From IMG/VR virus record IMGVR_UViG_3300047550_004271, positions 1-22,221 of that record: 22,221 nt of DNA. One strand, written 5' to 3'. Positions 570-20,052 of this stretch are shown here, in pieces. Both the position numbers and the translations under genes were made by a program. Under the pieces are notes generated by a model, which was not told the origin of the DNA, did not search any database, and saw nothing but the letters and a program-made list of their open reading frames with translations. This DNA comes from a virus. Each line of letters begins with the position of its first letter. The stretch's first letter is position 1.

Positions 570-626
570 ATTATACAGCATCCACACAAGGTTTTGGTGC
601 CTCCTGTGCCGGTTTATAAAGTGTCC
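570..626 (-). promoter_or_regulatory. Promoter with upstream repeated element (copy E)
   Basis: A TATAAT -10 box (570-575) sits about 20 bases before the ATG at 548. The repeated element GACACTT-N5-ACCGGC occupies 606-626, 30 bp upstream of the -10. No good -35 hexamer is seen at the proper spacing. The -10 box is also inside a small inverted repeat (560-565 with 571-576). The whole promoter lies within the 3' end of the homing endonuclease gene, whose TAA stop is part of TATAAT. Confidence 0.6.
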
Positions 627-1260
627 ATCCCTTACAGGTTTTGCTTTTTCCATTTACCATTCTATTAAATCCACCTTGGTCTAAATTATTTTTTTTACAA
701 AAATCAGTTTGATTTATTCCTCTTACTACTTCACCATCAGGACTAACTACACAAAACTCTTTACTCATAGAAAGGATTTGTTCCTCACTCATTTTTCTAC
801 CAATAGAACGAGAAACAAAACCATTTTCCAACCTCAATCTCCATCTCTCCTTCATCATCAGTTTTGTCCTTTCACTATGTTTTTTACCATACCAAGGATT
901 AGAATATTTGTATCTTGAAATACCATACATAGGATTATTTTTACCACTCATCAACATTTTTCTTCTTATCCTCGCACTTTCATAAAGATAAGAATTTACA
1001 TAATTTCCATTTGCTTTCATACTTGTGTGGGCATAAACCATCTTTATGGTTTTTTGGTCGTTCAATCCATATCTTTGGATACATATTTTTTCAAGTAGTG
1101 CGTGAGCAACATAATGTTCTCTTGAAGTAAGAACTACAACTCTATTATTCTTTCCGTAAATACTTACTGGAAAGATGTGGTGTTTTTCTGTATATCCATC
1201 AGGTGGAGTTCTGTTCTCTGCTTTCCTGATGAGATTACAATAAACTTTTAGATAGTTCAT
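571..1260 (-). CDS. HNH homing endonuclease with NUMOD-type DNA-binding modules
   Basis: This 229-residue protein starts at the ATG at 1260. The frame is open 21 codons further, but those cross the late promoter. An HNH core is near the N-terminus: EKHHIFPVSIYG (His27-His28) followed by TSREHYVAHALLEK (His49, His53). Next comes a NUMOD3-like segment (GKNNPMYG, then NPWYGKKHSERTK, residues 107-133) and a C-terminal helix-turn-helix-like module (FCKKNNLDQGGFNRM, residues 187-201) ending GWTLYK. Such proteins are selfish free-standing endonucleases that nick or cut DNA at a homing site and copy their gene. The last eleven or so residues look like translated intergenic DNA carrying the neighbour's promoter, suggesting insertion just upstream of the gene at 548. 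It has its own late promoter inside an inverted repeat. Confidence 0.85.
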   Translation of the reverse strand: MNYLKVYCNLIRKAENRTPPDGYTEKHHIFPVSIYGKNNRVVVLTSREHYVAHALLEKICIQRYGLNDQKTIKMVYAHTSMKANGNYVNSYLYESARIRRKMLMSGKNNPMYGISRYKYSNPWYGKKHSERTKLMMKERWRLRLENGFVSRSIGRKMSEEQILSMSKEFCVVSPDGEVVRGINQTDFCKKNNLDQGGFNRMVNGKSKTCKGWTLYKPAQEAPKPCVDAV

Positions 1261-1283
1261 TTCTACTCTGTAAGTCGCAATAC

Positions 1284-1291
1284 TATTTATA
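1284..1291 (-). promoter_or_regulatory. T4-type late promoter TATAAATA
   Basis: Exact match to the T4 late promoter box on the minus strand, placed so that transcription would begin near 1277, about 17 bases before the endonuclease ATG at 1260. A weaker variant, CATAAATA, occurs at 1349-1356. Confidence 0.7.
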
Positions 1292-1294
1292 CAA

Positions 1295-1320
1295 GAAAAG
1301 GTGCCCGAAAGCACCTTTTC
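1295..1320 (-). terminator. Probable intrinsic terminator
   Basis: A perfect 10-bp stem (GAAAAGGTGC with GCACCTTTTC) closes a 6-base loop. On the minus strand the 3' arm ends in CCTTTTC followed by TTG, a modest U-rich tail. It would end the operon 1866-1381 just before the late promoter of the homing endonuclease. Confidence 0.6.
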
Positions 1321-1380
1321 CACCTATAATGCGACTTACAGGTATTGTTATTTATGGTAGTTCATTTCAGGTTCTCCAGG

Positions 1381-1475
1381 TCAGCAAACTAAAAGGACAA
1401 AAACTACAAGAAGCATCAATAGTAAAAATATATCTAACTTTTTTTAAGAACTTTGATTTCTGCTTCGTGGTTCAT
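1381..1475 (-). pseudogene. Small membrane-protein gene interrupted at an A7 run
   Basis: An ATG at 1475 overlaps the previous stop (ATGA, as elsewhere in these operons) and reads MNHEAEIKVLKKS before a TAG. If the frame moves back by one base at the seven A residues (1439-1445 on the complement), it continues as KLDIFLLLMLLVVFVLLVC and stops at 1381. The combined 31-residue product would have a charged N-terminus and one very hydrophobic transmembrane helix. That is too coherent to be chance non-coding sequence. It may be a one-base deletion, an assembly error in the homopolymer, or a gene expressed by slippage. Confidence 0.5.
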
Positions 1476-1675
1476 CGCATTTCAGTGAGGACTTCAATAA
1501 AATCAATAATACAATCTTTGGGAATGTAGAATGGTTCTCCAGTTTTTCGTTCTTCAATCCCGTGAGTTGTATAATGAGTAATCTCTACAAAAACTTCACC
1601 ATCATTAGTAAATTGATAGAACCAACCATCTTCTTTGTGATGAATACGGATTTGTTTTGTGATTGAGTAAGTCAT
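1472..1675 (-). CDS. Hypothetical protein, 67 residues
   Basis: A small soluble protein beginning MTYSITKQIRIHHKEDGWFY, with alternating polar and hydrophobic residues suggesting beta strands followed by a C-terminal helix (IIDFIEVLTEMR). It overlaps the upstream 64-residue gene by four bases (ATGA), so it is the second gene of the operon starting at 1866. No motif or family is recognised. Confidence 0.65.
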   Translation of the reverse strand: MTYSITKQIRIHHKEDGWFYQFTNDGEVFVEITHYTTHGIEERKTGEPFYIPKDCIIDFIEVLTEMR

Positions 1676-1866
1676 CGGTTAGGATTGATGTAATTGGGCA
1701 GTTGAAAGTTGATGTAAGGTCTTACCTGATTGTGGTTATCATCATAGATACCATCAAAGTCAATCTCTGGATTGCCATAACATACATCAAAAGAGGCATT
1801 ATAACGACGCAGGAGTTCCTCAAAGTCCCTCATAAAAGCATCGGTGATTTGTTGTTGGTCAGTCAT
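1672..1866 (-). CDS. Hypothetical protein, 64 residues, operon leader
   Basis: A small acidic protein beginning MTDQQQITDAFMRDFEELL, with an N-terminal amphipathic helix and a Tyr/Asn-rich C-terminal half. It is the first gene after the promoter with a TATAAT box at 1889-1894, giving a predicted leader of about 16 bases, and is coupled to the next gene by an ATGA overlap. There is no recognised domain. Confidence 0.65.
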   Translation of the reverse strand: MTDQQQITDAFMRDFEELLRRYNASFDVCYGNPEIDFDGIYDDNHNQVRPYINFQLPNYINPNR

Positions 1867-1888
1867 CGGTTTGGTTGCTTATGAAGTC

Positions 1889-1946
1889 ATTATACAACGA
1901 AAAAAGGGCACCTGTGGAGATGCCCTGTGCCAGTTCCTCAAGTGTC
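1889..1946 (-). promoter_or_regulatory. Promoter with upstream repeated element (copy A)
   Basis: TATAAT (1889-1894) precedes the gene starting at 1866. The hexamer 17 bp upstream is CCACAG, a poor -35. The element GACACTT-N5-ACTGGC lies at 1926-1946, 31 bp from the -10. A terminator hairpin sits between element and -10, so the end of one operon and the start of the next are packed into about 60 bp. The element also forms the last codons and stop of the gene at 1938-2219. Confidence 0.65.
1900..1925 (-). terminator. Intrinsic terminator
   Basis: On the minus strand a GGGCA/TGCCC stem with a 10-base loop is followed directly by six T residues (complement of 1900-1905). It lies just past the stop of the gene at 1938-2219 and would end the operon beginning at 2608. 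Confidence 0.75.
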
Positions 1947-2219
1947 TTTCTGAAAAAACTCATCAGGAGGATTGTGAATAAACATAGACTTTTTCATCTT
2001 TCCAATACCCTTCTTCTCTGTAAATCCTTCGGGTATAGGTCCATCCCACCCATTCTTCTTTGCTTGTCCGACTGAGGGGAACAATTCCATTTCGACTGCT
2101 AGATGTGCTAATGTCCAATGTGGTTGTATTTCAATGTGGTCGTTTGGGTCAAATCCCCACCAGTCAGATTCTGGTAGGGAAAAAACACCAGGTTTTACAA
2201 AGTTGAATTCGAACTGCAT
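1938..2219 (-). CDS. Hypothetical protein, 93 residues
   Basis: A protein beginning MQFEFNFVKPGVFSLPESDWW, with a distinctive middle segment, FPSVGQAKKNGWDGPIPEG, followed by a basic GIGKMKKSMFIHNPP stretch. I believe such segments recur in small cyanophage proteins but cannot name the family. Its start lies 25 bases inside the upstream gene (2195-2608), so the two are likely coupled. The stop codon falls within the repeated element GACACTTGA, giving a Lys-Asp-Thr C-terminus. Function unknown. Confidence 0.7.
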   Translation of the reverse strand: MQFEFNFVKPGVFSLPESDWWGFDPNDHIEIQPHWTLAHLAVEMELFPSVGQAKKNGWDGPIPEGFTEKKGIGKMKKSMFIHNPPDEFFQKDT

Positions 2220-2608
2220 TGTTCTTCCTCATCAGACAGTACAGTTCCCATCGGACCTTTTTTCAATCGTGCCCATTCTTCTTCTGCCTGTTGCATGTCA
2301 TCAAACTTCTTCCTCAGGTCTTCACCCAAAGTCAGTTCGAATTCATCGGCAACTTTACGCATATCTTCTTCTCTTCGATCTTCACCAAATGCAACACCAC
2401 AAGCACCTTTCATAATGTTGATTTCATCATGACCCATTGCACGGGCAACGGTTGCGAAGAAACGAAACAGTTGATGAACATTAAGGTCTTCAGCAGGAAT
2501 CTGAAAAGTATAATGCTCTTCGGGGAGCATCATATCATCAAAACCACTACTGTAACTAGTAGAAGTCCATTCAGAATCAAAAGAAACTTTGAGAGATGCC
2601 TTATACAT
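2195..2608 (-). CDS. Hypothetical protein, 137 residues, operon leader
   Basis: The frame is open to 2653, but the ATG at 2608 (MYKASLKVSF) is chosen because the -10 box at 2635-2640 lies inside the longer version. The N-terminal third looks beta-rich, the middle (HQLFRFFATVARAMGHDEI) helical, and the C-terminal half is strongly charged with a likely coiled helix (DMQQAEEEWARLKK) and an acidic tail. No catalytic motif or membrane segment is seen. It overlaps the next gene by 25 bases. Function unknown. Confidence 0.7.
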   Translation of the reverse strand: MYKASLKVSFDSEWTSTSYSSGFDDMMLPEEHYTFQIPAEDLNVHQLFRFFATVARAMGHDEINIMKGACGVAFGEDRREEDMRKVADEFELTLGEDLRKKFDDMQQAEEEWARLKKGPMGTVLSDEEEQCSSNSTL

Positions 2609-2634
2609 TTTGGGGGTTTTTGATTTATAAATGT

Positions 2635-2691
2635 ATAATACCAGAAAGAGCACCCAAAATCAAGTGCCCTTGTGCCAGTCCTTTAAGTGTC
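2635..2691 (-). promoter_or_regulatory. Promoter with upstream repeated element (copy B)
   Basis: TTGATT (2658-2663) and TATTAT (2635-2640) are separated by 17 bp, a good sigma-70-type promoter about 20 bases before the transcription start region of the gene at 2608. The element GACACTT-N5-ACTGGC occupies 2671-2691, 30 bp from the -10. The element also contains the TAA stop of the small gene at 2683-2847. Confidence 0.7.
2647..2670 (-). terminator. Terminator-like hairpin
   Basis: A 7-bp stem (AGGGCAC with GTGCTCT, one G-U pair) closes a 10-base loop on the minus strand. The following sequence (TTCTGG) is only weakly U-rich. It lies between the stop of the 54-residue gene and the promoter of the next operon, overlapping that promoter's -35 region and spacer. 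Confidence 0.5.
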
Positions 2692-2847
2692 CTTGTCTCC
2701 CAATTTTACACCAATATCTTTATCAGTTAAGTCATTATATAAAAGTTTAGCAAATATAATATGAGGTTTTTCTCTTGTTTCAATTGCGGAACTAGTTGCC
2801 ACAGTCCACATAATATCAAGTTGCAGTTTATCAGGTAATTCTTTCAT
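2683..2847 (-). CDS. Hypothetical protein, 54 residues
   Basis: A complete small frame from ATG at 2847 to TAA at 2683. It begins MKELPDKLQLDIMWTVATSS, has a helical amphipathic middle (KPHIIFAKLLYNDL), and ends LGDKDT. It overlaps the upstream stop by one base (TGATG), matching the coupling style of this long operon. It is the last gene of the unit that starts with RNA ligase at 6611. Family and function are not recognised. Confidence 0.7.
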   Translation of the reverse strand: MKELPDKLQLDIMWTVATSSAIETREKPHIIFAKLLYNDLTDKDIGVKLGDKDT

Positions 2848-3437
2848 CAGTCCCACCACCAGCAGAGGTTTTCAAGTGTGTTAATAAATTGTTCATGATA
2901 AACCGTTCTACTAGGATTTGGTTTACCATCTTTCATGTCTTGTAGATATTGCATTATGCCACGAACAACTGGTGTGTCTTGAAAGTATTCGTGCATTCGG
3001 TAACAATCAAACTTTTCATTATATTCAATAAAGTCATGAAGTGGTGCCATGTTGCGACGATAAGCACGAATGAATACATCTTCATATTTGATGCCATTCT
3101 TGTTGCGAATGTCAAGTGGTGCATATCTTTCTTCTTCTGGAATATCATCAGTAAGAATTGCATGTTCTGGATTTTCAAATACAAAGTGAAGACCTTCGTA
3201 ATACTTTTCTAACAACTCTAGATCTGGTGCTACACTGAGGTCTTCATTATCTTCCATGTAATATTTCATTCGATTGATTGCATCTGGGTCTGTCAATCGA
3301 AATACAATATTACCAATATAATAGTCTACTGGACCACCATACATGCTTTCAGATAGTCTCTTGCGAAAAGACAAATGAATGATCTCAAATCCAGGATCTT
3401 CATTCTCTTCCATTACTAAACCTTGCGAAATACTCAT
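2847..3437 (-). CDS. Hypothetical protein, 196 residues
   Basis: A medium-sized acidic soluble protein beginning MSISQGLVMEENEDPGFEI and ending LENLCWWWD. Features include a Tyr/Gly-rich segment (MYGGPVDYYIGNIVF, about residues 32-46), an acidic central region (ILTDDIPEEERYAP) and a Tyr-rich helical C-terminal third. No nucleotide-binding, metal-binding or membrane motif is seen. It overlaps the upstream gene by four bases (ATGA) and the downstream gene by one, so it is part of the RNA-repair operon and probably expressed early. I do not recognise the family. Confidence 0.75.
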   Translation of the reverse strand: MSISQGLVMEENEDPGFEIIHLSFRKRLSESMYGGPVDYYIGNIVFRLTDPDAINRMKYYMEDNEDLSVAPDLELLEKYYEGLHFVFENPEHAILTDDIPEEERYAPLDIRNKNGIKYEDVFIRAYRRNMAPLHDFIEYNEKFDCYRMHEYFQDTPVVRGIMQYLQDMKDGKPNPSRTVYHEQFINTLENLCWWWD

Positions 3438-3712
3438 TCTTTTACCTCTTGAACATAAAAAGACTCATCACGCCAGTTGCGACCAGCAATATCAAAAGTA
3501 AAACCTAATTTACCAAGAGAAAATAAGAAGGAAAACAGTCTTCCATATCCCATAGAGATTTGAAGATAAGGACATTCAATCCAAGAACCATACTCACCAA
3601 TATCAAATGCAACTTGGAGAAGTGCATGATGTTCATTAAAGAAAAGAGTTAAGCAATATTCTTTACCATAATCTTCTCTGGTATACCATTTTGCTACTTG
3701 AAAGATTTTCAT
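3434..3712 (-). CDS. Hypothetical protein, 92 residues
   Basis: A beta-rich, aromatic protein beginning MKIFQVAKWYTREDYG, with a central HHALLQVAFDIGEYGSW and a C-terminal FSFLFSLGKLGFTFDI. Its general layout resembles the 89-residue protein at 279-548 (short N-terminal strand, ALLQV-like strand, then FxFxxGxxGFxF and a Trp/Asp end), which suggests distant paralogy but at low identity. It is coupled to the next gene by an ATGA overlap. Function unknown. Confidence 0.7.
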   Translation of the reverse strand: MKIFQVAKWYTREDYGKEYCLTLFFNEHHALLQVAFDIGEYGSWIECPYLQISMGYGRLFSFLFSLGKLGFTFDIAGRNWRDESFYVQEVKE

Positions 3713-3793
3713 TCTTTTAGTTCCTGCGCTAGTTGTAGCATATCATTTTTGTCCAAAACAATCAAGTCATAATGTTTGTGATTCTTCAGTCAT
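3709..3793 (-). pseudogene. Probable frameshifted micro-gene
   Basis: Between the phosphatase gene and the gene at 3712 an ATG at 3793 reads MTEESQTL then stops. In a neighbouring frame the same stretch reads HKHYDLIVLDKNDMLQLAQ and ends QELKE with a TGA overlapping the next ATG (ATGA coupling). Joining the two by a small indel near 3775-3782 gives a natural-looking 28-residue acidic peptide. Either the gene is broken or I am reading chance sequence. Confidence 0.35.
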
Positions 3794-3795
3794 AA

Positions 3796-4248
3796 TTAAA
3801 AATTACCTGCGCCCTGTCCAACATCAAAAGTCCAGATACCACGTTCTTGCCACATATTGACGACCCTTTGTCGATCATCAAAAACTCCAAGAATGTTATG
3901 AGTTTGCAGAATCTCATCGGCAATCTCACCTTTGACTACAGAATCATCACGATGATCCTTATACTTTCGCATATAAAGTTTATCGTAGAAGATTTCGTTT
4001 TCGGTCAACCAATTGACAGTTTGATTTTCATAGTCATCAGAACGACCAGAAACAATAATCAAATCAGTTTCATAGGAACTACGAAGTGCCTGATAAACCA
4101 TTTGAACTGGTCTATGCGGTTTGTCATTCACCAGACCAGCGTTCCAGGCATCCCAGTTGCGTGGTTTGGTTGCAACATACTGACGACGATGGCGAACATC
4201 ACAAATGGTTCCGTCCAAATCAAAAATGAAGCAATTACGCTTGGTCAT
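3796..4248 (-). CDS. pseT: Polynucleotide 3'-phosphatase (HAD fold), like the C-terminal domain of T4 Pnkp
   Basis: This 150-residue HAD-family phosphatase removes 3'-phosphate or 2',3'-cyclic phosphate ends from RNA so that they can be ligated. The signature DxDGT motif is at residues 10-14 (FDLDGTICD; Asp10 the expected nucleophile, Asp12 the acid/base). A motif II segment IIVSGRSD has Ser67, and a motif III-like GVFDDRQRVVNMW carries Asp124-Asp125. The C-terminal FDVGQGAGNF matches the end of T4 PseT in style. In T4 this domain is fused behind the kinase; here it is a separate gene after the kinase (4453-4929) with a small gene between. The ATG at 4248 is preferred over a GTG one codon upstream because it overlaps the previous stop (TGATG). 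Confidence 0.85.
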   Translation of the reverse strand: MTKRNCFIFDLDGTICDVRHRRQYVATKPRNWDAWNAGLVNDKPHRPVQMVYQALRSSYETDLIIVSGRSDDYENQTVNWLTENEIFYDKLYMRKYKDHRDDSVVKGEIADEILQTHNILGVFDDRQRVVNMWQERGIWTFDVGQGAGNF

Positions 4249-4475
4249 CACACTTCCTCAAAATAATAAAAAGCATCCTGGAAAACTTCATCATCCTCAC
4301 CCAAACTCATCCAACCTGCTGCCATACTATCAGAGTATTGCTCCCAAGCATGAACAGCATCAGAGTGTGAGATTTCATAACCATGATCAGCAAAGATTTT
4401 TACAATCCGATCAATGTCATTTTTATATTCAAAGTGATGGTTATATTGTTGCTTAACTTTCAACTTTTTCAACAT
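4248..4475 (-). CDS. Hypothetical protein between kinase and phosphatase, 75 residues
   Basis: The frame is open to 4508, but the ATG at 4475 (MLKKLKVKQQYNHHF) has a GAGG ribosome-binding site nine bases upstream and is preferred. The protein has a basic N-terminus, a helical middle (DIDRIVKIFADHGYEI), then HAWEQYSDSMAAGWM and an acidic C-terminus. It lies inside the split kinase-phosphatase pair, overlapping the kinase gene by 23 bases and the phosphatase by one. Position suggests a role linked to RNA repair, but no motif supports a specific function. Confidence 0.7.
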   Translation of the reverse strand: MLKKLKVKQQYNHHFEYKNDIDRIVKIFADHGYEISHSDAVHAWEQYSDSMAAGWMSLGEDDEVFQDAFYYFEEV

Positions 4476-4929
4476 AATCAAAGTCCTCATTGTGAGTTGG
4501 AATTTCAAACTGATGCCACATTCGTTTCAGAATACTTTCGGGAATGAACTTTCCTTCACGATGTTTGTTTCGTTCTAGTGCCTCTTCTAGGGATATTTCA
4601 AAGTATACCACACCCCTCCTATAATAGGAAGGAAGTTTAGAAAGTTTTTTCCTTCGGGTCTTTTTAGATAAATTTGTTTGGTCAAAAATAATGTCCTTCC
4701 CTTTGTCCTTTGCCTCAATAAAAGCAATCTCCAACTGACGAGTAGCATCAGGAATGACATCATCAAAGACTTCATTGTAAGTCTGCCCAACACGTTTGGC
4801 ATATTCTTCGATGTAATTATCTGTAGAAAGGACTACTGCATCTTTCCAGTAGTCCAGTTTCTTCAGTCTTTTCACATATGTGGACTTCCCAGAAGTAGGA
4901 ATTCCACAAAGCATTACAAGTTCAGACAT
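4453..4929 (-). CDS. pnk: Polynucleotide 5'-kinase (P-loop), like the N-terminal domain of T4 Pnkp
   Basis: This 158-residue P-loop kinase is expected to phosphorylate 5'-OH ends of RNA or DNA using ATP. The Walker A motif GIPTSGKST is at residues 9-17. Asp37 in STDNY is placed like the catalytic Asp of T4 polynucleotide kinase. DQTNLSKKTRRKK (residues 83-95) matches the conserved DTNL region, and NKHREGKFIPESILKRM resembles the arginine-bearing lid. The ATG at 4929 (MSELVML) overlaps the HNH gene stop by eight bases; an upstream in-frame ATG at 4956 is less likely. It lies downstream of RNA ligase and upstream of the 3'-phosphatase, so the three end-healing and sealing activities are co-transcribed. 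Confidence 0.87.
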   Translation of the reverse strand: MSELVMLCGIPTSGKSTYVKRLKKLDYWKDAVVLSTDNYIEEYAKRVGQTYNEVFDDVIPDATRQLEIAFIEAKDKGKDIIFDQTNLSKKTRRKKLSKLPSYYRRGVVYFEISLEEALERNKHREGKFIPESILKRMWHQFEIPTHNEDFDYVEKVES

Positions 4930-5398
4930 AAACATACTCCTTCCATTCGGACACATTACTTTTGTTTAGGGCAAGTGTCATTTTGTTAAATGGTACTTTT
5001 GGTTTTCGGTAAAGTGGTCTTCCCCATTCTTCTGGAGTCTTATCTCCCTTATGGGTATTGCAAGGCATACATGCAACTACCATGTTTTCCCAGGAATCTA
5101 CACCACCACGGGAACGTGGAATTACGTGATCAATCGTTAAATCTTTGAAAGATCCACAGTATTGGCACATGTGATCATCACGTTTGTAAATCATATGTCG
5201 TGATGGTTTGTTTGTCATAATTTTTTCGATGGGCAACTTAATATAATTGACCAAGCGAATTACACGGGCAGACAAACGCTGTGCTTTCTCTTTCAGAAGA
5301 AGAACGATTGCTCTTCTCCAATTTGTAAAATTAATGGGTTCATAACTTGCATTAAGCACAAGTATCGTTTTATTTGGTTCAATTAATAAGTTTTCCAT
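4922..5398 (-). CDS. HNH endonuclease, McrA-type, resembling a cyanobacterial chromosomal family
   Basis: This 158-residue protein has a classical zinc-bound HNH fold. CQYCG (Cys78, Cys81) is followed by LTIDHVIPRSRGG (Asp90-His91), then WENMVVACMPCN (Asn105, Cys110, Cys113) and THKG. The N-terminal half, TILVLNASYEPINFTNWRRA, is typical of a widespread cyanobacterial HNH family rather than of phage homing endonucleases with NUMOD repeats. It sits 10 bp after RNA ligase and overlaps the kinase by eight bases, so it is a resident member of the RNA-repair operon. Its substrate is unknown; roles in DNA packaging, recombination or degradation of competitor DNA are possible. An AAAGG ribosome-binding site lies just before the ATG. 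Confidence 0.85.
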   Translation of the reverse strand: MENLLIEPNKTILVLNASYEPINFTNWRRAIVLLLKEKAQRLSARVIRLVNYIKLPIEKIMTNKPSRHMIYKRDDHMCQYCGSFKDLTIDHVIPRSRGGVDSWENMVVACMPCNTHKGDKTPEEWGRPLYRKPKVPFNKMTLALNKSNVSEWKEYVYV

Positions 5399-5408
5399 CG
5401 ACCTTTAA

Positions 5409-6611
5409 TTAATTCATATTATCTATGTTGGAATAGTTCCAGTTTAGTCCGCCCCACAACCAGCGATTTTCATCAACTTTGGTTTGAGTTGTAAGCGATT
5501 TACGGATCATATCAACAATAATTTGTTTTGATCCTTTACCATTCTTCATACCATACATGATAGGAGCATAGATGGGAAGAGTTTCTTTCTGCACATATTC
5601 AACAGCAAAATCCTTTTTATCGGGATATTTTTTGTTGCCCATGCCAAACAAATGATCCATGTCAATACAAAGATCAGTAACAGATGCCCAGAAGGCATTT
5701 TGAAACGCCTTAACACGTTCTGCATCCTCTGGGGTCAAAAGAGGAACAAGGTCATCCACAGCGTCATCCAGAATGGTCTCAATCACGTTTTTTTCTTGAT
5801 TGATGGCATCCTTGGACTTGTGGCGGAGAACGTAATCATCTGCCTTGACTTTGACCATATGACCAGTATCAAAACGGAGAACAACACCTTCACCATCATC
5901 CCATTCACGGACTTGTTTCACAAACAACTCAATGTTCTGAACAGAAAGACCATCCACTGCTTTAACTACTGGAATACCCCAAGCAGTTGCATAATTCTTC
6001 ATAACTTCATAAGTTACATAAGAACCAGTAGTTTTATCGCGCATGGCAGTCAGAATAAGTTGGTCTTCTGGATAATCCACCACAATACGGTTCTTACGAG
6101 AACACCATTCAAAAATAGGAGTAAATCCTTTTTGGAGGGACTTGAGAATAAAGTGAGCATAATAAGACTTATCAGCAATAAACACTTCTGCGTTCATCGC
6201 AACATCCGTAATACCTGCTTTAGTTGCAAGACGGAAACCCTCTTTAGTAGGAATCGGACGAATCATGGAACCATCCAATTTCTCCAGAACTACATGAGGT
6301 TCATAGAGATTGATTTTATTCACTTGAGTTTCATCACGTTCTCCAGCATTGAAGAATTTATGATATGGGCGTGAGATCAGAGCACCAGTTTCAGTATCAA
6401 AAATAAGACCACGGCACTCACGGCGAATAGTAGTGTTCAGATATGAATCACTACCGTCAGGAGAATCGTAAGAGAACGTTTCTTCAAATGCCACCATGTA
6501 GTTGATTACTGTGTACCAACCTTTTTCCATTACACGGAATTCATCCCAACCTTCAATGTGAGGAAGAACGTCGTCAATGTGATTGAGGTTTGGGAATTGG
6601 TAGTTCATCAT
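5409..6611 (-). CDS. rnlA: RNA ligase 1 (T4 RnlA-like)
   Basis: An ATP-dependent ligase that seals 3'-OH and 5'-phosphate RNA ends; in T4 it works with polynucleotide kinase/phosphatase to repair tRNA cut by a host anticodon nuclease. The adenylation motif EKLDGSM places the nucleophile Lys at about residue 111. Upstream are RRECRGLIFD and KFFNAGE as in T4 Rnl1. Downstream are FEWCSRKNRIV (motif IIIa), EGVVLRFD (motif IV) and MVKVKADDY (motif V). Length is 400 residues against 374 in T4. The frame opens at a GTG (6626), but that lies before the predicted transcription start, so the ATG at 6611 (or 6608) is preferred. It heads an operon of about ten genes. Confidence 0.92.
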   Translation of the reverse strand: MMNYQFPNLNHIDDVLPHIEGWDEFRVMEKGWYTVINYMVAFEETFSYDSPDGSDSYLNTTIRRECRGLIFDTETGALISRPYHKFFNAGERDETQVNKINLYEPHVVLEKLDGSMIRPIPTKEGFRLATKAGITDVAMNAEVFIADKSYYAHFILKSLQKGFTPIFEWCSRKNRIVVDYPEDQLILTAMRDKTTGSYVTYEVMKNYATAWGIPVVKAVDGLSVQNIELFVKQVREWDDGEGVVLRFDTGHMVKVKADDYVLRHKSKDAINQEKNVIETILDDAVDDLVPLLTPEDAERVKAFQNAFWASVTDLCIDMDHLFGMGNKKYPDKKDFAVEYVQKETLPIYAPIMYGMKNGKGSKQIIVDMIRKSLTTQTKVDENRWLWGGLNWNYSNIDNMN

Positions 6612-6628
6612 CTTACGGTGTTTCACAT

Positions 6629-6684
6629 ACTATAAAACCCTCAACCGTAAAAGTCAAGGGTTAGTGGACAGTTCAAAAAGTGTC
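6629..6684 (-). promoter_or_regulatory. Strong promoter with upstream repeated element (copy C)
   Basis: TTGACT (6652-6657) and TATAGT (6629-6634) are 17 bp apart, close to sigma-70 consensus. Transcription would start near 6622, about 11 bases before the RNA ligase ATG. The element GACACTT-N5-ACTGTC lies at 6664-6684, 29 bp from the -10. A hairpin covers the -35 and spacer. Confidence 0.75.
6636..6662 (-). terminator. Terminator-like hairpin overlapping promoter
   Basis: AACCCTTGAC pairs with GTTGAGGGTT (10 bp including two G-U pairs) around a 7-base loop, followed by TTATAG on the minus strand. It is placed to end transcription of the helicase operon while containing the -35 box of the next one. 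The tail is only weakly U-rich. Confidence 0.5.
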
Positions 6685-6723
6685 TTCAATCTCTTTGACG
6701 CCAACAATGACGAATAAGCATTA

Positions 6724-6963
6724 TTACTTATTTTTATTTTCATATTCATCCATCAACTCCTTTGCGAGTTTTATAGATCGACGCCACATAAAATACTTCA
6801 CAATGGGATTCGCTGGATTATGAAGTATCCACCACTTTACTTTTTCATATTCCACTCTTGCTAGTTGAGTCAGCATGTAAAATGCCCTCGCTACAGATTG
6901 ATCGGTAACAATCAAGTAAGCAATACAAAAAAATACAACAAAGTAAATGTATGTGGTATTCAT
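6724..6963 (-). CDS. Small membrane protein, 79 residues
   Basis: The N-terminus YIYFVVFFCIAYLIV (residues 5-19) is a clear membrane-spanning helix, followed by a basic, helical cytoplasmic or periplasmic part (VEYEKVKWWILH, then FMWRRSIKLAKELMDEYENKNK). It ends in tandem stops (TAATAA). It is the last gene of the operon that starts with the helicase at 8978. Small single-span proteins of this kind are common in cyanophages, but I cannot assign a function. Confidence 0.7.
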   Translation of the reverse strand: MNTTYIYFVVFFCIAYLIVTDQSVARAFYMLTQLARVEYEKVKWWILHNPANPIVKYFMWRRSIKLAKELMDEYENKNK

Positions 6964-6970
6964 CTTTCAA

Positions 6971-7135
6971 TCATTTTTTAATTACTTTAATAGGGCAAGA
7001 AGGAATAACTTTTCGGATTTCGTGAATGATTTCTGTTTTTTGAACTTCAGTCAATCCGACAATTTTTGTAACTCGATGAATAATACTCAATGCATCACTA
7101 CAAGAGATAATGGTTGATGCAAGTAGAACAACCAT
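6971..7135 (-). CDS. Hypothetical protein, 54 residues, hydrophobic N-terminus
   Basis: A complete frame from ATG at 7135 to TGA at 6971, beginning MVVLLASTIISCSDALSII and ending CPIKVIKK. An AGGA ribosome-binding site is eight bases before the ATG. The N-terminal 11 residues are hydrophobic and end in IISC, which resembles a lipobox, but there is no basic residue before it, so export is uncertain. The C-terminal part is a helical, mixed-charge segment (EVQKTEIIHEIRKVIP). A possible AATAAATA late promoter sits just upstream. Function unknown. Confidence 0.7.
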   Translation of the reverse strand: MVVLLASTIISCSDALSIIHRVTKIVGLTEVQKTEIIHEIRKVIPSCPIKVIKK

Positions 7136-7157
7136 GCTATTTTCCTATTCTAAAAAA

Positions 7158-7165
7158 TATTTATT
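7158..7165 (-). promoter_or_regulatory. Possible late promoter AATAAATA
   Basis: A NATAAATA match on the minus strand overlaps the stop codon of the gene at 7161-7367 and would start transcription about 16 bases before the ATG at 7135. It could allow late expression of the last two genes of this operon. In AT-rich DNA a chance match is possible. Confidence 0.4.
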
Positions 7166-7367
7166 GAGCAAATCCTTTGCTCTTAACCTTTTTTTTATCT
7201 TTTACAATTATAACATCTAAAAAATCTGGAATCTGACAATTTTGATACCAATACATCCAGGTATCCTCCCAATTATCAAAAAACTGGATTTTACCACTCT
7301 TCAATACAATTTCATAATCATGCCTATCATAAGGGGCATCAGATGTACATTTGAATGTTTGTGTCAT
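7161..7367 (-). CDS. Hypothetical protein, 68 residues
   Basis: Begins MTQTFKCTSDAPYDRHDYEI, with an aromatic middle (WEDTWMYWYQNC) and a Lys-rich C-terminus (KDKKKVKSKGFAQ). The central layout, with short beta strands around WEDTW, suggests a small folded domain, but no family is recognised. It is coupled to the upstream 74-residue gene by an ATGA overlap. Confidence 0.65.
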   Translation of the reverse strand: MTQTFKCTSDAPYDRHDYEIVLKSGKIQFFDNWEDTWMYWYQNCQIPDFLDVIIVKDKKKVKSKGFAQ

Positions 7368-7588
7368 AGGAATTTATCCAAAGAAGAGACAGATTTACCT
7401 TTAATTGCTTTTTGAATGTAAGACCTAGCAGTTTTGTAGTTATTTGCAGTATGGACTTGTTGACCTTTATATACAATAATAAATTTTTTACCCCATGGCA
7501 AAGCTGCCCATTCACCATCCTTAGACACATAACCATTCGGATCTCCTGGTTTTGGATTCAGAAGACTTTCATTTTGAATATTATTCAT
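7364..7588 (-). CDS. Hypothetical protein, 74 residues
   Basis: Begins MNNIQNESLLNPKPGDPNGY, followed by WAALPWGKKFIIVYKGQQV and a basic helical C-terminus (ARSYIQKAIKGKSVSSLDKFL). It may be a small nucleic-acid-associated or scaffold-like protein, but this rests only on charge. It overlaps the upstream 46-residue gene by one base (TAATG) and the downstream gene by four, firmly within the helicase operon. Confidence 0.65.
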   Translation of the reverse strand: MNNIQNESLLNPKPGDPNGYVSKDGEWAALPWGKKFIIVYKGQQVHTANNYKTARSYIQKAIKGKSVSSLDKFL

Positions 7589-7728
7589 TAAAATACAACA
7601 GTAGAGGACATAACACGGGCATTTGGATATTGTGCAAGAGCAACTTGAACTGCTTCTTGACGATTACGGGCATAACATTCAACATAGAATGTTTGACCAC
7701 TAACCATGCAGGTAACACGATGTTTCAT
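7588..7728 (-). CDS. Hypothetical protein, 46 residues
   Basis: A complete small frame from ATG at 7728 to TAA at 7588, reading MKHRVTCMVSGQTFYVECYA then NRQEAVQVALAQYPNARV and ending MSSTVVF. The pattern is two beta strands, an amphipathic helix and a final strand, a compact beta-beta-alpha-beta layout. It starts 11 bases after the helicase stop and overlaps the next gene by one base. I believe proteins of this type are common in cyanophages, but the function is unknown. Confidence 0.7.
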   Translation of the reverse strand: MKHRVTCMVSGQTFYVECYARNRQEAVQVALAQYPNARVMSSTVVF

Positions 7729-7739
7729 AATTAAATACC

Positions 7740-8978
7740 TCAGCGTTTGATGGTAGAAATTGCAGGTTCGCCTTGAACAAAGATTGTCTCAGCGACACTC
7801 TGCAGGCGTTTGGCAGTTGCGATACCGACATTACTATACACGGGAACATGGATGAACCCATAGGACTTCACATAATCTTCCGTCTTACCAGGAGTCAAAG
7901 TCCCCTCTGAGAGGCGCTTAGAATCGTCTGGATGGAGGCGAATCACCCTACCGATGGTCTGTGCCATAGAGATGTAATCCATGTTCCTCATGAGGACGCA
8001 GGAGGTCAATCCAGGGCAGTTGATACCCTCAGACAGAATGCTGTAGTGAAGAATGATAAACTTCTTCTCAGGATCCTTACCCCATGCAGTCAGAGTATCG
8101 AAAAATACCTCACGGGAAACCTTTTGATTGTTGATGAACGCACCATACTTTGCTGTAACCCACAGCACATCATACCCATAAGACTGAACTTCTGTCATGA
8201 ATTCAGTCTCTGCAAGCATCCTAATCAACACTTTGGTATTGGGCGCTGCTACCAGAACCTTTTGCATATTATCCTCATTGAGAATCGTATCCAGAAGAGT
8301 CATGCAATCACGCTCTGCTGCATCATCTTTATCACGAATTGCATTGACTTGACTCACACAAACTTGAGGAGGAACAATGAAACCACCCTCAACCAATTCA
8401 GGAGCAGGAACATTACAAATCACTTGACCATACACAGATCCATCATTCATCCCAGGTTTGGAAATCGTAGCAGAATGCTTAGGAGTAGCAGTGAAGAAAT
8501 AACAGCGGTTAGCAGTAGCAGAGAAGTGTTTTGTAGCAGGGAAAAAATGACTCTTAACGCTGTTATGTGCTTCATCAAAGTAAATAGTGTCAATGTGAAT
8601 GTCTGCCTGTTGCAGACGCTGCAAAGAGTTGTAGGTGGTGAAGATCAGTTTGTGACCTTTGTTGTGATAGTTCCACGCAAAAATCCTATTCGGACTAGTA
8701 GTGCTAAAATGATGTGTCTCACCACTATGCACATGAAGAACGGCAGCGTTAGTGATAAACTCAAGAAACTCAGAAGACAATTGCTCCGCTAGCATGATTC
8801 TTGGAGCAACCACCACAATCGTACGATGATCGCTATTGGAAAACTCTTTGATCGCATCAGCAATCATGGTCAGAGTCTTTCCAGCACCAGTCGGCATGAT
8901 CAATTGACCAATGCGATACTTAAGCATTGCTTCAAGACCGCGTTGTTGGTGAGGACGGAGTTGAATCACGGGGTTCAT
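7740..8978 (-). CDS. Superfamily 2 DEAD/DEAH-box helicase, possibly UvsW-related
   Basis: A 412-residue SF2 helicase. Gln-motif-like LRPHQQRGLEAM is at residues 7-18, Walker A MPTGAGKT at 28-35, motif Ia VVAPRIMLAEQL at 57-68, DEAH at 135-138, motif III-like FFTATP at 161-166, motif V SEGINCPGL near 317-325, and QTIGRVIRLHP (motif VI) from 340. It most likely remodels DNA or RNA-DNA hybrids during replication and recombination. Length and motifs fit phage UvsW-like or type III restriction helicase-like proteins (UvsW of T4 is longer), and I cannot separate these without comparison. The ATG at 8978 follows the -10 box by only about 14 bases, so the leader is very short. It heads the operon that runs to 6724. 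Confidence 0.88.
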   Translation of the reverse strand: MNPVIQLRPHQQRGLEAMLKYRIGQLIMPTGAGKTLTMIADAIKEFSNSDHRTIVVVAPRIMLAEQLSSEFLEFITNAAVLHVHSGETHHFSTTSPNRIFAWNYHNKGHKLIFTTYNSLQRLQQADIHIDTIYFDEAHNSVKSHFFPATKHFSATANRCYFFTATPKHSATISKPGMNDGSVYGQVICNVPAPELVEGGFIVPPQVCVSQVNAIRDKDDAAERDCMTLLDTILNEDNMQKVLVAAPNTKVLIRMLAETEFMTEVQSYGYDVLWVTAKYGAFINNQKVSREVFFDTLTAWGKDPEKKFIILHYSILSEGINCPGLTSCVLMRNMDYISMAQTIGRVIRLHPDDSKRLSEGTLTPGKTEDYVKSYGFIHVPVYSNVGIATAKRLQSVAETIFVQGEPAISTIKR

Positions 8979-8991
8979 TGCGTATGAGACT

Positions 8992-9045
8992 ATTATAGCA
9001 GAAGACCGTCCCTGATGCGACTCAGTGGACGGTCTCTTAAGTGTC
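8992..9045 (-). promoter_or_regulatory. Promoter with upstream repeated element (copy D)
   Basis: TATAAT (8992-8997) precedes the helicase ATG at 8978. The hexamer at -35 spacing is TCGCAT, a poor match. The element GACACTT-N5-ACCGTC is at 9025-9045, 27 bp from the -10, with a strong hairpin overlapping its downstream part. A promoter with a perfect -10 but no -35 suggests dependence on an activator. Confidence 0.65.
9003..9035 (-). terminator. Strong hairpin, probable terminator
   Basis: A perfect 9-bp stem (AGACCGTCC with GGACGGTCT) closes a 15-base loop, followed on the minus strand by TCTGC. The stem is GC-rich but the U-tract is poor. It lies between the end of the tail-fibre block (stop at 9101) and the helicase promoter. 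Confidence 0.55.
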
Positions 9046-20023: not shown

Positions 20024-20052
20024 ATTATAGGGTGTCTGAGTCCTGATGTCAA
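20024..20052 (-). promoter_or_regulatory. Consensus early promoter TTGACA-17-TATAAT
   Basis: Both hexamers match the sigma-70 consensus perfectly (-35 at 20047-20052, -10 at 20024-20029) with ideal spacing. It lies just after the structural gene stop at 20060 and drives the accessory island (66-residue protein, Phd-like protein, tRNAs). Unlike the promoters at 570-9045 it carries no GACACTT element. Confidence 0.85.

Follow-up and report, generated by a model that had tools for sequence, protein, structure and literature searches.

A palindromic element at a fixed distance from the -10 box of putative early-type promoters in T4-like cyanophages

Doron et al. (2016, ISME J 10:1437) reportedly found that early genes of the cyanophages Syn9 and P-TIM40 have a new kind of regulatory element, and middle genes promoters that resemble those of the host. 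In T4 the MotA box is a short, non-palindromic sequence centred near -30. The T4 genes alt, modA, motA and asiA redirect the host polymerase. Cyanomyoviruses have neither motA nor asiA (PMC5780444, PMC2984593) and also lack alt and modA (PMC2984593), which raises the question of how T4-like cyanophages start early transcription. T4-type phages also contain promoter-early stem-loops (PeSLs), which are promoter-terminator cassettes (Arbiol 2010; Comeau 2014, cited in PMC4503421); PMC4503421 reports them as only sparse in S-PM2. Here we describe a repeated, promoter-linked palindromic element in a stretch of viral DNA of 22,221 nucleotides (IMG/VR record IMGVR_UViG_3300047550_004271, positions 1 to 22,221), which is referred to as the window. 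The nearest named relative of the window is S-SRM01, a freshwater Synechococcus phage and T4-like cyanomyovirus of 240,842 bases.

A first-pass annotation of the window had reported five copies of the pattern GACACTT-N5-ACYGKC on the minus strand, which is the coding strand of the region that carries them. All five are exact, and they lie at 608-625 (copy E, GACACTTTATAAACCGGC), 1929-1946 (copy A, GACACTTGAGGAACTGGC), 2674-2691 (copy B, GACACTTAAAGGACTGGC), 6667-6684 (copy C, GACACTTTTTGAACTGTC) and 9028-9045 (copy D, GACACTTAAGAGACCGTC). Their composite scores are 41.3 (null 0), 40.8, 35.9, 27.3 and 26.5, respectively. When up to two mismatches are allowed the window contains 6 matches, against 0.99 expected, and none of 100 shuffles reached 6. 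The -10 boxes are those first described: TATAAT for E (570-575), TATAAT for A (1889-1894), TATTAT for B (2635-2640), TATAGT for C (6629-6634) and TATAAT for D (8992-8997), all on the minus strand. The spacers between the end of the element and the -10 box are 32, 34, 33, 32 and 30 bp long in the same order. The gap of 27-31 bp given earlier describes these same spacers of 30-34 bp, measured from a longer version of the element. Each copy precedes the first gene of an operon and the leaders are short, the next ATG being found about 13-26 nt from the -10 box; both points agree with the earlier description.

We consider it probable that T4-like cyanophages have an early-type promoter in two parts and that each copy forms the upstream half of one, the dyad being a likely binding site for a dimeric protein. 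The palindrome would occupy about -62 to -45. Three helical turns, or 32 +/- 1 bp, separate it from TATAATA, a -10 sequence of the sigma-70 type. The predicted transcription start is an RTA located 12 nt after the -10 box begins, and the first gene would follow behind a short leader that usually has no Shine-Dalgarno sequence. A dimeric protein most likely binds the dyad on the face of the DNA that carries the polymerase, and the bound dimer would help the host sigma-70 polymerase at promoters that often have a weak -35 or none. Many copies also have a spacer hairpin that probably ends transcription of the preceding operon, and one block of about 90 bp would then be both terminator and promoter.

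The distance between dyad and -10 box was measured for 544 dyads that were picked by element score alone, ignoring the -10. An exact TATAAT is found at 32 bp in 171 of these, at 33 bp in 76, at 31 bp in 20 and at 30 bp in 9, while almost all remaining distances, up to 89 bp, have 0-2. There is a smaller TATAAT peak at 31-33 bp on the opposite side, which results from dyads of ambiguous orientation. In IMG/VR the pattern with a gap of 30-34 bp is present in at least 119 stretches, compared with 21 for a gap of 22-26 bp and 24 for a gap of 38-42 bp. The centre of the dyad lies about 41 bp before the start of the -10 box, which is near -53 if the -10 start is counted as -12. An A follows the -10 box, and the trinucleotide RTA is found 12 nt after its start, with frequencies of.95 for A or G,.81 for T and.61 for A. 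For most members of the site set, the first ATG comes 27-32 nt after the beginning of the -10 box. The dyad could also be the operator of a phage or host repressor that turns early promoters off at a later time, and dimeric repressors too typically use palindromic operators of this size. We regard this as improbable, as the fixed position some 32 bp upstream of the -10, which overlaps neither the -10 nor the start, is more typical of activators and a good -35 is lacking from many of these promoters.

The first-pass annotation had proposed scanning the whole genome and related cyanophages for copies at a fixed distance from a TANNNT sequence, and the outcome strongly supports the association. 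Using a composite weight matrix, dyad-promoter sites were found in S-SRM01 (29 sites), S-CRM01 (27), S-PM2 (23), S-SKS1 (20), P-SSM2 (18), P-TIM40 (15) and Syn9 (10), compared with 0-0.3 sites in Markov-shuffled genomes (0.0 for S-SRM01, 0.3 for Syn9 and 0 for P-TIM40). S-TIM5 has 7 sites, which are weak and poorly placed. The same matrix finds zero sites in T4, Ma-LMM01 and the Pelagibacter phage HTVC008M; the tested cyanomyoviruses have the element, while T4 and the relative that infects Pelagibacter do not. The host of HTVC008M is Pelagibacter, although NCBI places this phage in the Kyanoviridae. A pattern search of P-SSP7, Syn5, PSS2, S-CBS2 and phiM12, which include cyano-podoviruses and cyano-siphoviruses, gave no match. 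Proteins related to those of cyanomyoviruses are encoded by 118 of the 119 stretches among the IMG/VR matches listed, and these 118 score higher to cyanomyovirus proteins than to those of T4, Ma-LMM01 or HTVC008M. The element can be used to annotate operons of the early type in cyanophage contigs from metagenomes.

The element is probably the early-gene regulatory element of Doron et al., judged by the phages in which it occurs and not by a comparison of sequences. An element of this kind has most likely been reported before. Both phages of that study, Syn9 and P-TIM40, carry the element (10 and 15 sites). The element of that study is reported to be conserved across T4-like cyanophages and abundant in metagenomes; the present one occurs in seven cyanomyoviruses with 10-29 sites each and in the IMG/VR stretches counted above.

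In S-SRM01, 27 of the 29 sites lie within 32-93 kb, among small open reading frames (ORFs) mostly of unknown function (binomial p ~2e-14), and the other two are at 146-150 kb. None of the 29 is in a structural block, and none precedes the DNA polymerase, helicase, primase or ribonucleotide reductase. The Syn9 sites cluster in a region of small ORFs at 44-53 kb, and include sites centred at 44785, 47215, 48569, 49089, 51011, 51222 and 53007. The element had first been proposed as an activator site for a middle-gene class. A promoter-linked site of the activator type and a cyanophage regulon both stand, but the middle class does not fit the position of the S-SRM01 sites. From gene context, the class is probably early and concerned with host takeover rather than centred on replication. 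In the window there is no copy in the fibre region, as first reported, and none at the promoter at 20024-20052, a near-perfect TTGACA-17-TATAAT promoter that has no dyad and shares the GTA start and the short leader. This promoter, which had been called early, probably belongs to a host-like class. By the classes that Doron et al. reportedly described, together with the presence of the element in both of their phages, the early and middle labels first given to these two kinds of promoter would be reversed.

The MotA box of T4 had been offered as a comparison in role. The likeness holds loosely, in that an upstream element is combined with a -10 box where the -35 is weak or absent. The element differs from the MotA box in being a palindromic dyad, in lying near -53 rather than near -30 and in occurring in cyanomyoviruses, which have no motA or asiA; T4 itself has no copy of the element. 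Three of the five window promoters (E, A and D) have no usable -35, as first noted, and -35-like hexamers are present in C (TTGACT, 17 bp upstream of the -10) and B (TTGATT). The -35 region of promoter A offers only TCCACA, at 18 bp. Across sites the -35 hexamer is not conserved, yet good -35 matches are commoner than in shuffled spacers.

The window element is an inverted repeat, which the first-pass annotation had missed. Its left arm is GACACTT and its right arm is AACYGKC, extending into ACA. The structure was examined in a set of 519 unique sites, drawn from IMG/VR stretches as well as from cyanophage genomes. In the tested T4-like cyanophages the consensus is (TGT)GMCASTT-N4-AASTGKC(ACA), an imperfect palindrome in which the outer TGT and ACA are weaker. 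A perfectly symmetric example, GACAGTTGAGGAACTGTC, is found at position 76613 of S-SRM01. Positions 4 and 13 form a variable pair with complementary bases in 31% of the sites, against 45% expected from independent columns, and the non-complementary pairs there are mostly C/C or G/G. The remaining arm pairs show complementarity close to the expectation from independence. As the arms do not co-vary in the manner of an RNA stem, a protein dimer on DNA is favoured as the simplest source of the symmetry, and an RNA hairpin formed by the element was rejected. The two half-sites tend to differ, one being CACTT and the other CAGTT, and perfect palindromes are under-represented. Unlike half-sites may reflect an asymmetric dimer or the avoidance of cruciforms and hairpins.

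Hairpins do occur in the spacer between the element and the -10 box. In 39% of sites the folding energy of the spacer is at or below -9 kcal/mol, compared with 6% of composition shuffles. A hairpin of -6 kcal/mol or better with a T run is present in 27% of sites, and about 44% have no hairpin of this strength. In 16 of the 29 S-SRM01 sites the element abuts or overlaps the upstream stop codon, against 5% at random. The frequent hairpins and the overlap with upstream stop codons suggest that the block probably marks both the end of one operon and the beginning of the next. The same two features could also mean that the element works at the RNA level, as a signal for the 3' end or the processing of the upstream operon's transcript, which was an alternative raised by the first-pass annotation. 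Spacers do often enclose a terminator-like hairpin, but this hairpin and the element are separate features. The element itself does not contain an intrinsic terminator, that is a GC-rich hairpin with a T run, and its arms show no compensatory pairing. The distance from the element to the -10 box is fixed to within about 1 bp, and many sites have no spacer hairpin. We judge an RNA signal very improbable.

In the window, a hairpin had been reported after four of the copies. Spacer hairpins are present in A, B, C and D and not in E (z 0.25), but only A passes a strict terminator scan. The terminator-like hairpin between element A and its -10 box is at 1905-1926 and has 9 bp, a loop of 4 and a T run. 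The hairpins of promoters B (2646-2671) and C (6636-6662) have z values of -2.37 and -2.15 for the folded stretch. Promoter D has a strong hairpin at 9002-9036 (z -4.62 for the folded stretch), the 5' arm of which reuses the right half of dyad D. All four are on the minus strand.

The blocks resemble PeSLs in that an early promoter (early by gene context here) is fused with a stem-loop terminator in a short intergenic block in hypervariable early regions. Copy A has a promoter adjoining a stem-loop terminator in the sense of a PeSL, as would the 27% of sites with a hairpin and a T run. Unlike PeSLs, the blocks have an additional palindromic upstream element, and the hairpin lies between this element and the -10 box. 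Such a block, with a terminator and an early-type promoter in one, might be mainly a recombination cassette that shuffles early genes, with transcription secondary. The copies cluster in hypervariable regions of small ORFs, and some come right after homing-endonuclease genes (S-SRM01 49073 and 51993, and copy E). What is conserved, however, is mainly the element, the -10 box, the start and the leader, while the spacer sequence varies, which fits selection on a promoter better than use as a shared arm of homology. One role does not preclude the other, and there is a slim chance that recombination is the main one.

A two-part promoter could also depend on a protein of the host. A cyanobacterial transcription factor might bind the dyad, the phages having copied its operator to hijack a host activator; early promoters must function before phage proteins exist. 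The palindrome, with at most one mismatch, is enriched in larger cyanobacterial genomes, with 75 sites, several of them exact, against 15 for a reversed-pattern control (counted by hand from a table covering 386 cyanobacterial genomes; the control falls to 8 without one repeat-rich genome). Genomes of up to 2.6 Mb, a range that covers the picocyanobacterial hosts, show no such excess (2 sites against 3 for the control), and a host operator in picocyanobacteria was rejected at this mismatch level. The element with TATAAT at the right distance is rare among bacteria and archaea, 257 Gb of their genomes having it in 13 stretches against an estimated 9 or so by chance. Twenty sites from the larger cyanobacterial genomes fall in coding sequence, a clustered regularly interspaced short palindromic repeats (CRISPR) spacer and unrelated intergenic spots, and form no coherent regulon. 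The cyano-podoviruses and cyano-siphoviruses of the same hosts do not have the element by pattern search. A host activator is thus possible but rather unlikely, and is not favoured.

We propose, tentatively, that an undescribed dimeric activator binds the dyad. It would be encoded by the phage and perhaps delivered with the virion, and would contact the host sigma-70 polymerase from about -53 to switch on early operons. About two dozen protein families are common to the element-bearing phages and absent from T4, Ma-LMM01 and HTVC008M. Pfam and PHROGs annotations of eight binder candidates were uninformative, except for a PHROG 'transcriptional regulator' beside phoH (phrog_385) and for DUF7717. 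With a dyad of 24 bp and a fixed phasing, the element is a sharply defined bait for such a factor.

Several points weigh against the two-part promoter. The start site and activation are predicted from sequence and the binding protein is putative; no binder was singled out, and the shared families have no clear DNA-binding domain. Element strength shows no trade-off with -35 quality (Spearman 0.11), which indicates that the element does not simply replace the -35, and direct replacement of the -35 is not supported. The training sites of the weight matrix had been selected together with a -10 box, which makes the composite scores partly circular; the spacing histogram and the off-distance scans suffer less from this bias. 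Scanning IMG/VR with altered element letters gives no usable control, as its count too is only a lower bound.

The five window promoters precede genes of different kinds. Those behind E and A are small and of unknown function. Promoter E has its predicted +1 at 563 (ATA), and the ATG of its first gene is at 548 (ORF 279-548). The first gene of promoter A is ORF 1672-1866 and that of promoter B is ORF 2195-2608 (phrog_6458, function not known). The first gene of promoter D encodes a DEAD/ResIII helicase (7740-8978). Promoter C is followed by a T4 Rnl1-like RNA ligase gene (5409-6611), and the whole operon at 3796-6626 encodes this Rnl1-type ligase, an HNH protein, an AAA_33/zeta-like kinase and a PNKP-type phosphatase. 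It resembles a split version of the T4 Pnkp/Rnl1 RNA-repair set.

Outside the cyanomyoviruses, 3 of the 13 stretches from bacterial and archaeal genomes (L139-L141) are contigs of one metagenome-assembled genome of an uncultured Microbacteriaceae and carry several element-TATAAT promoters. These are probably phage contigs that were binned with this genome. In the large cyanobacterial genomes (L240-L259) the palindrome is about 5-9 fold over the reversed control, with conserved spots near ppk-, panD-, chlH- and purH-like genes, the names being assigned by eye. A Microcystis-type CRISPR spacer (stretch L248, about 2493-2527) contains a copy of the element, GTGACACTTTGAGAATTGGCAC; this spacer has no exact protospacer in IMG/VR.

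The element is also found beside genes of the homing-endonuclease type. Copy E is inside the 3' end of a NUMOD3 endonuclease ORF (571-1323), and in S-SRM01 the elements at 49073 and 51993 likewise overlap the end of, or directly follow, NUMOD3/HNH genes. This suggests the insertion of such genes just upstream of these promoters. At position 207136 of S-SRM01 an element-like dyad, GACACTATTTATACTGGC, is present upstream of an endonuclease-interrupted psbA and adjoins a TTGACA/TATGAT promoter.

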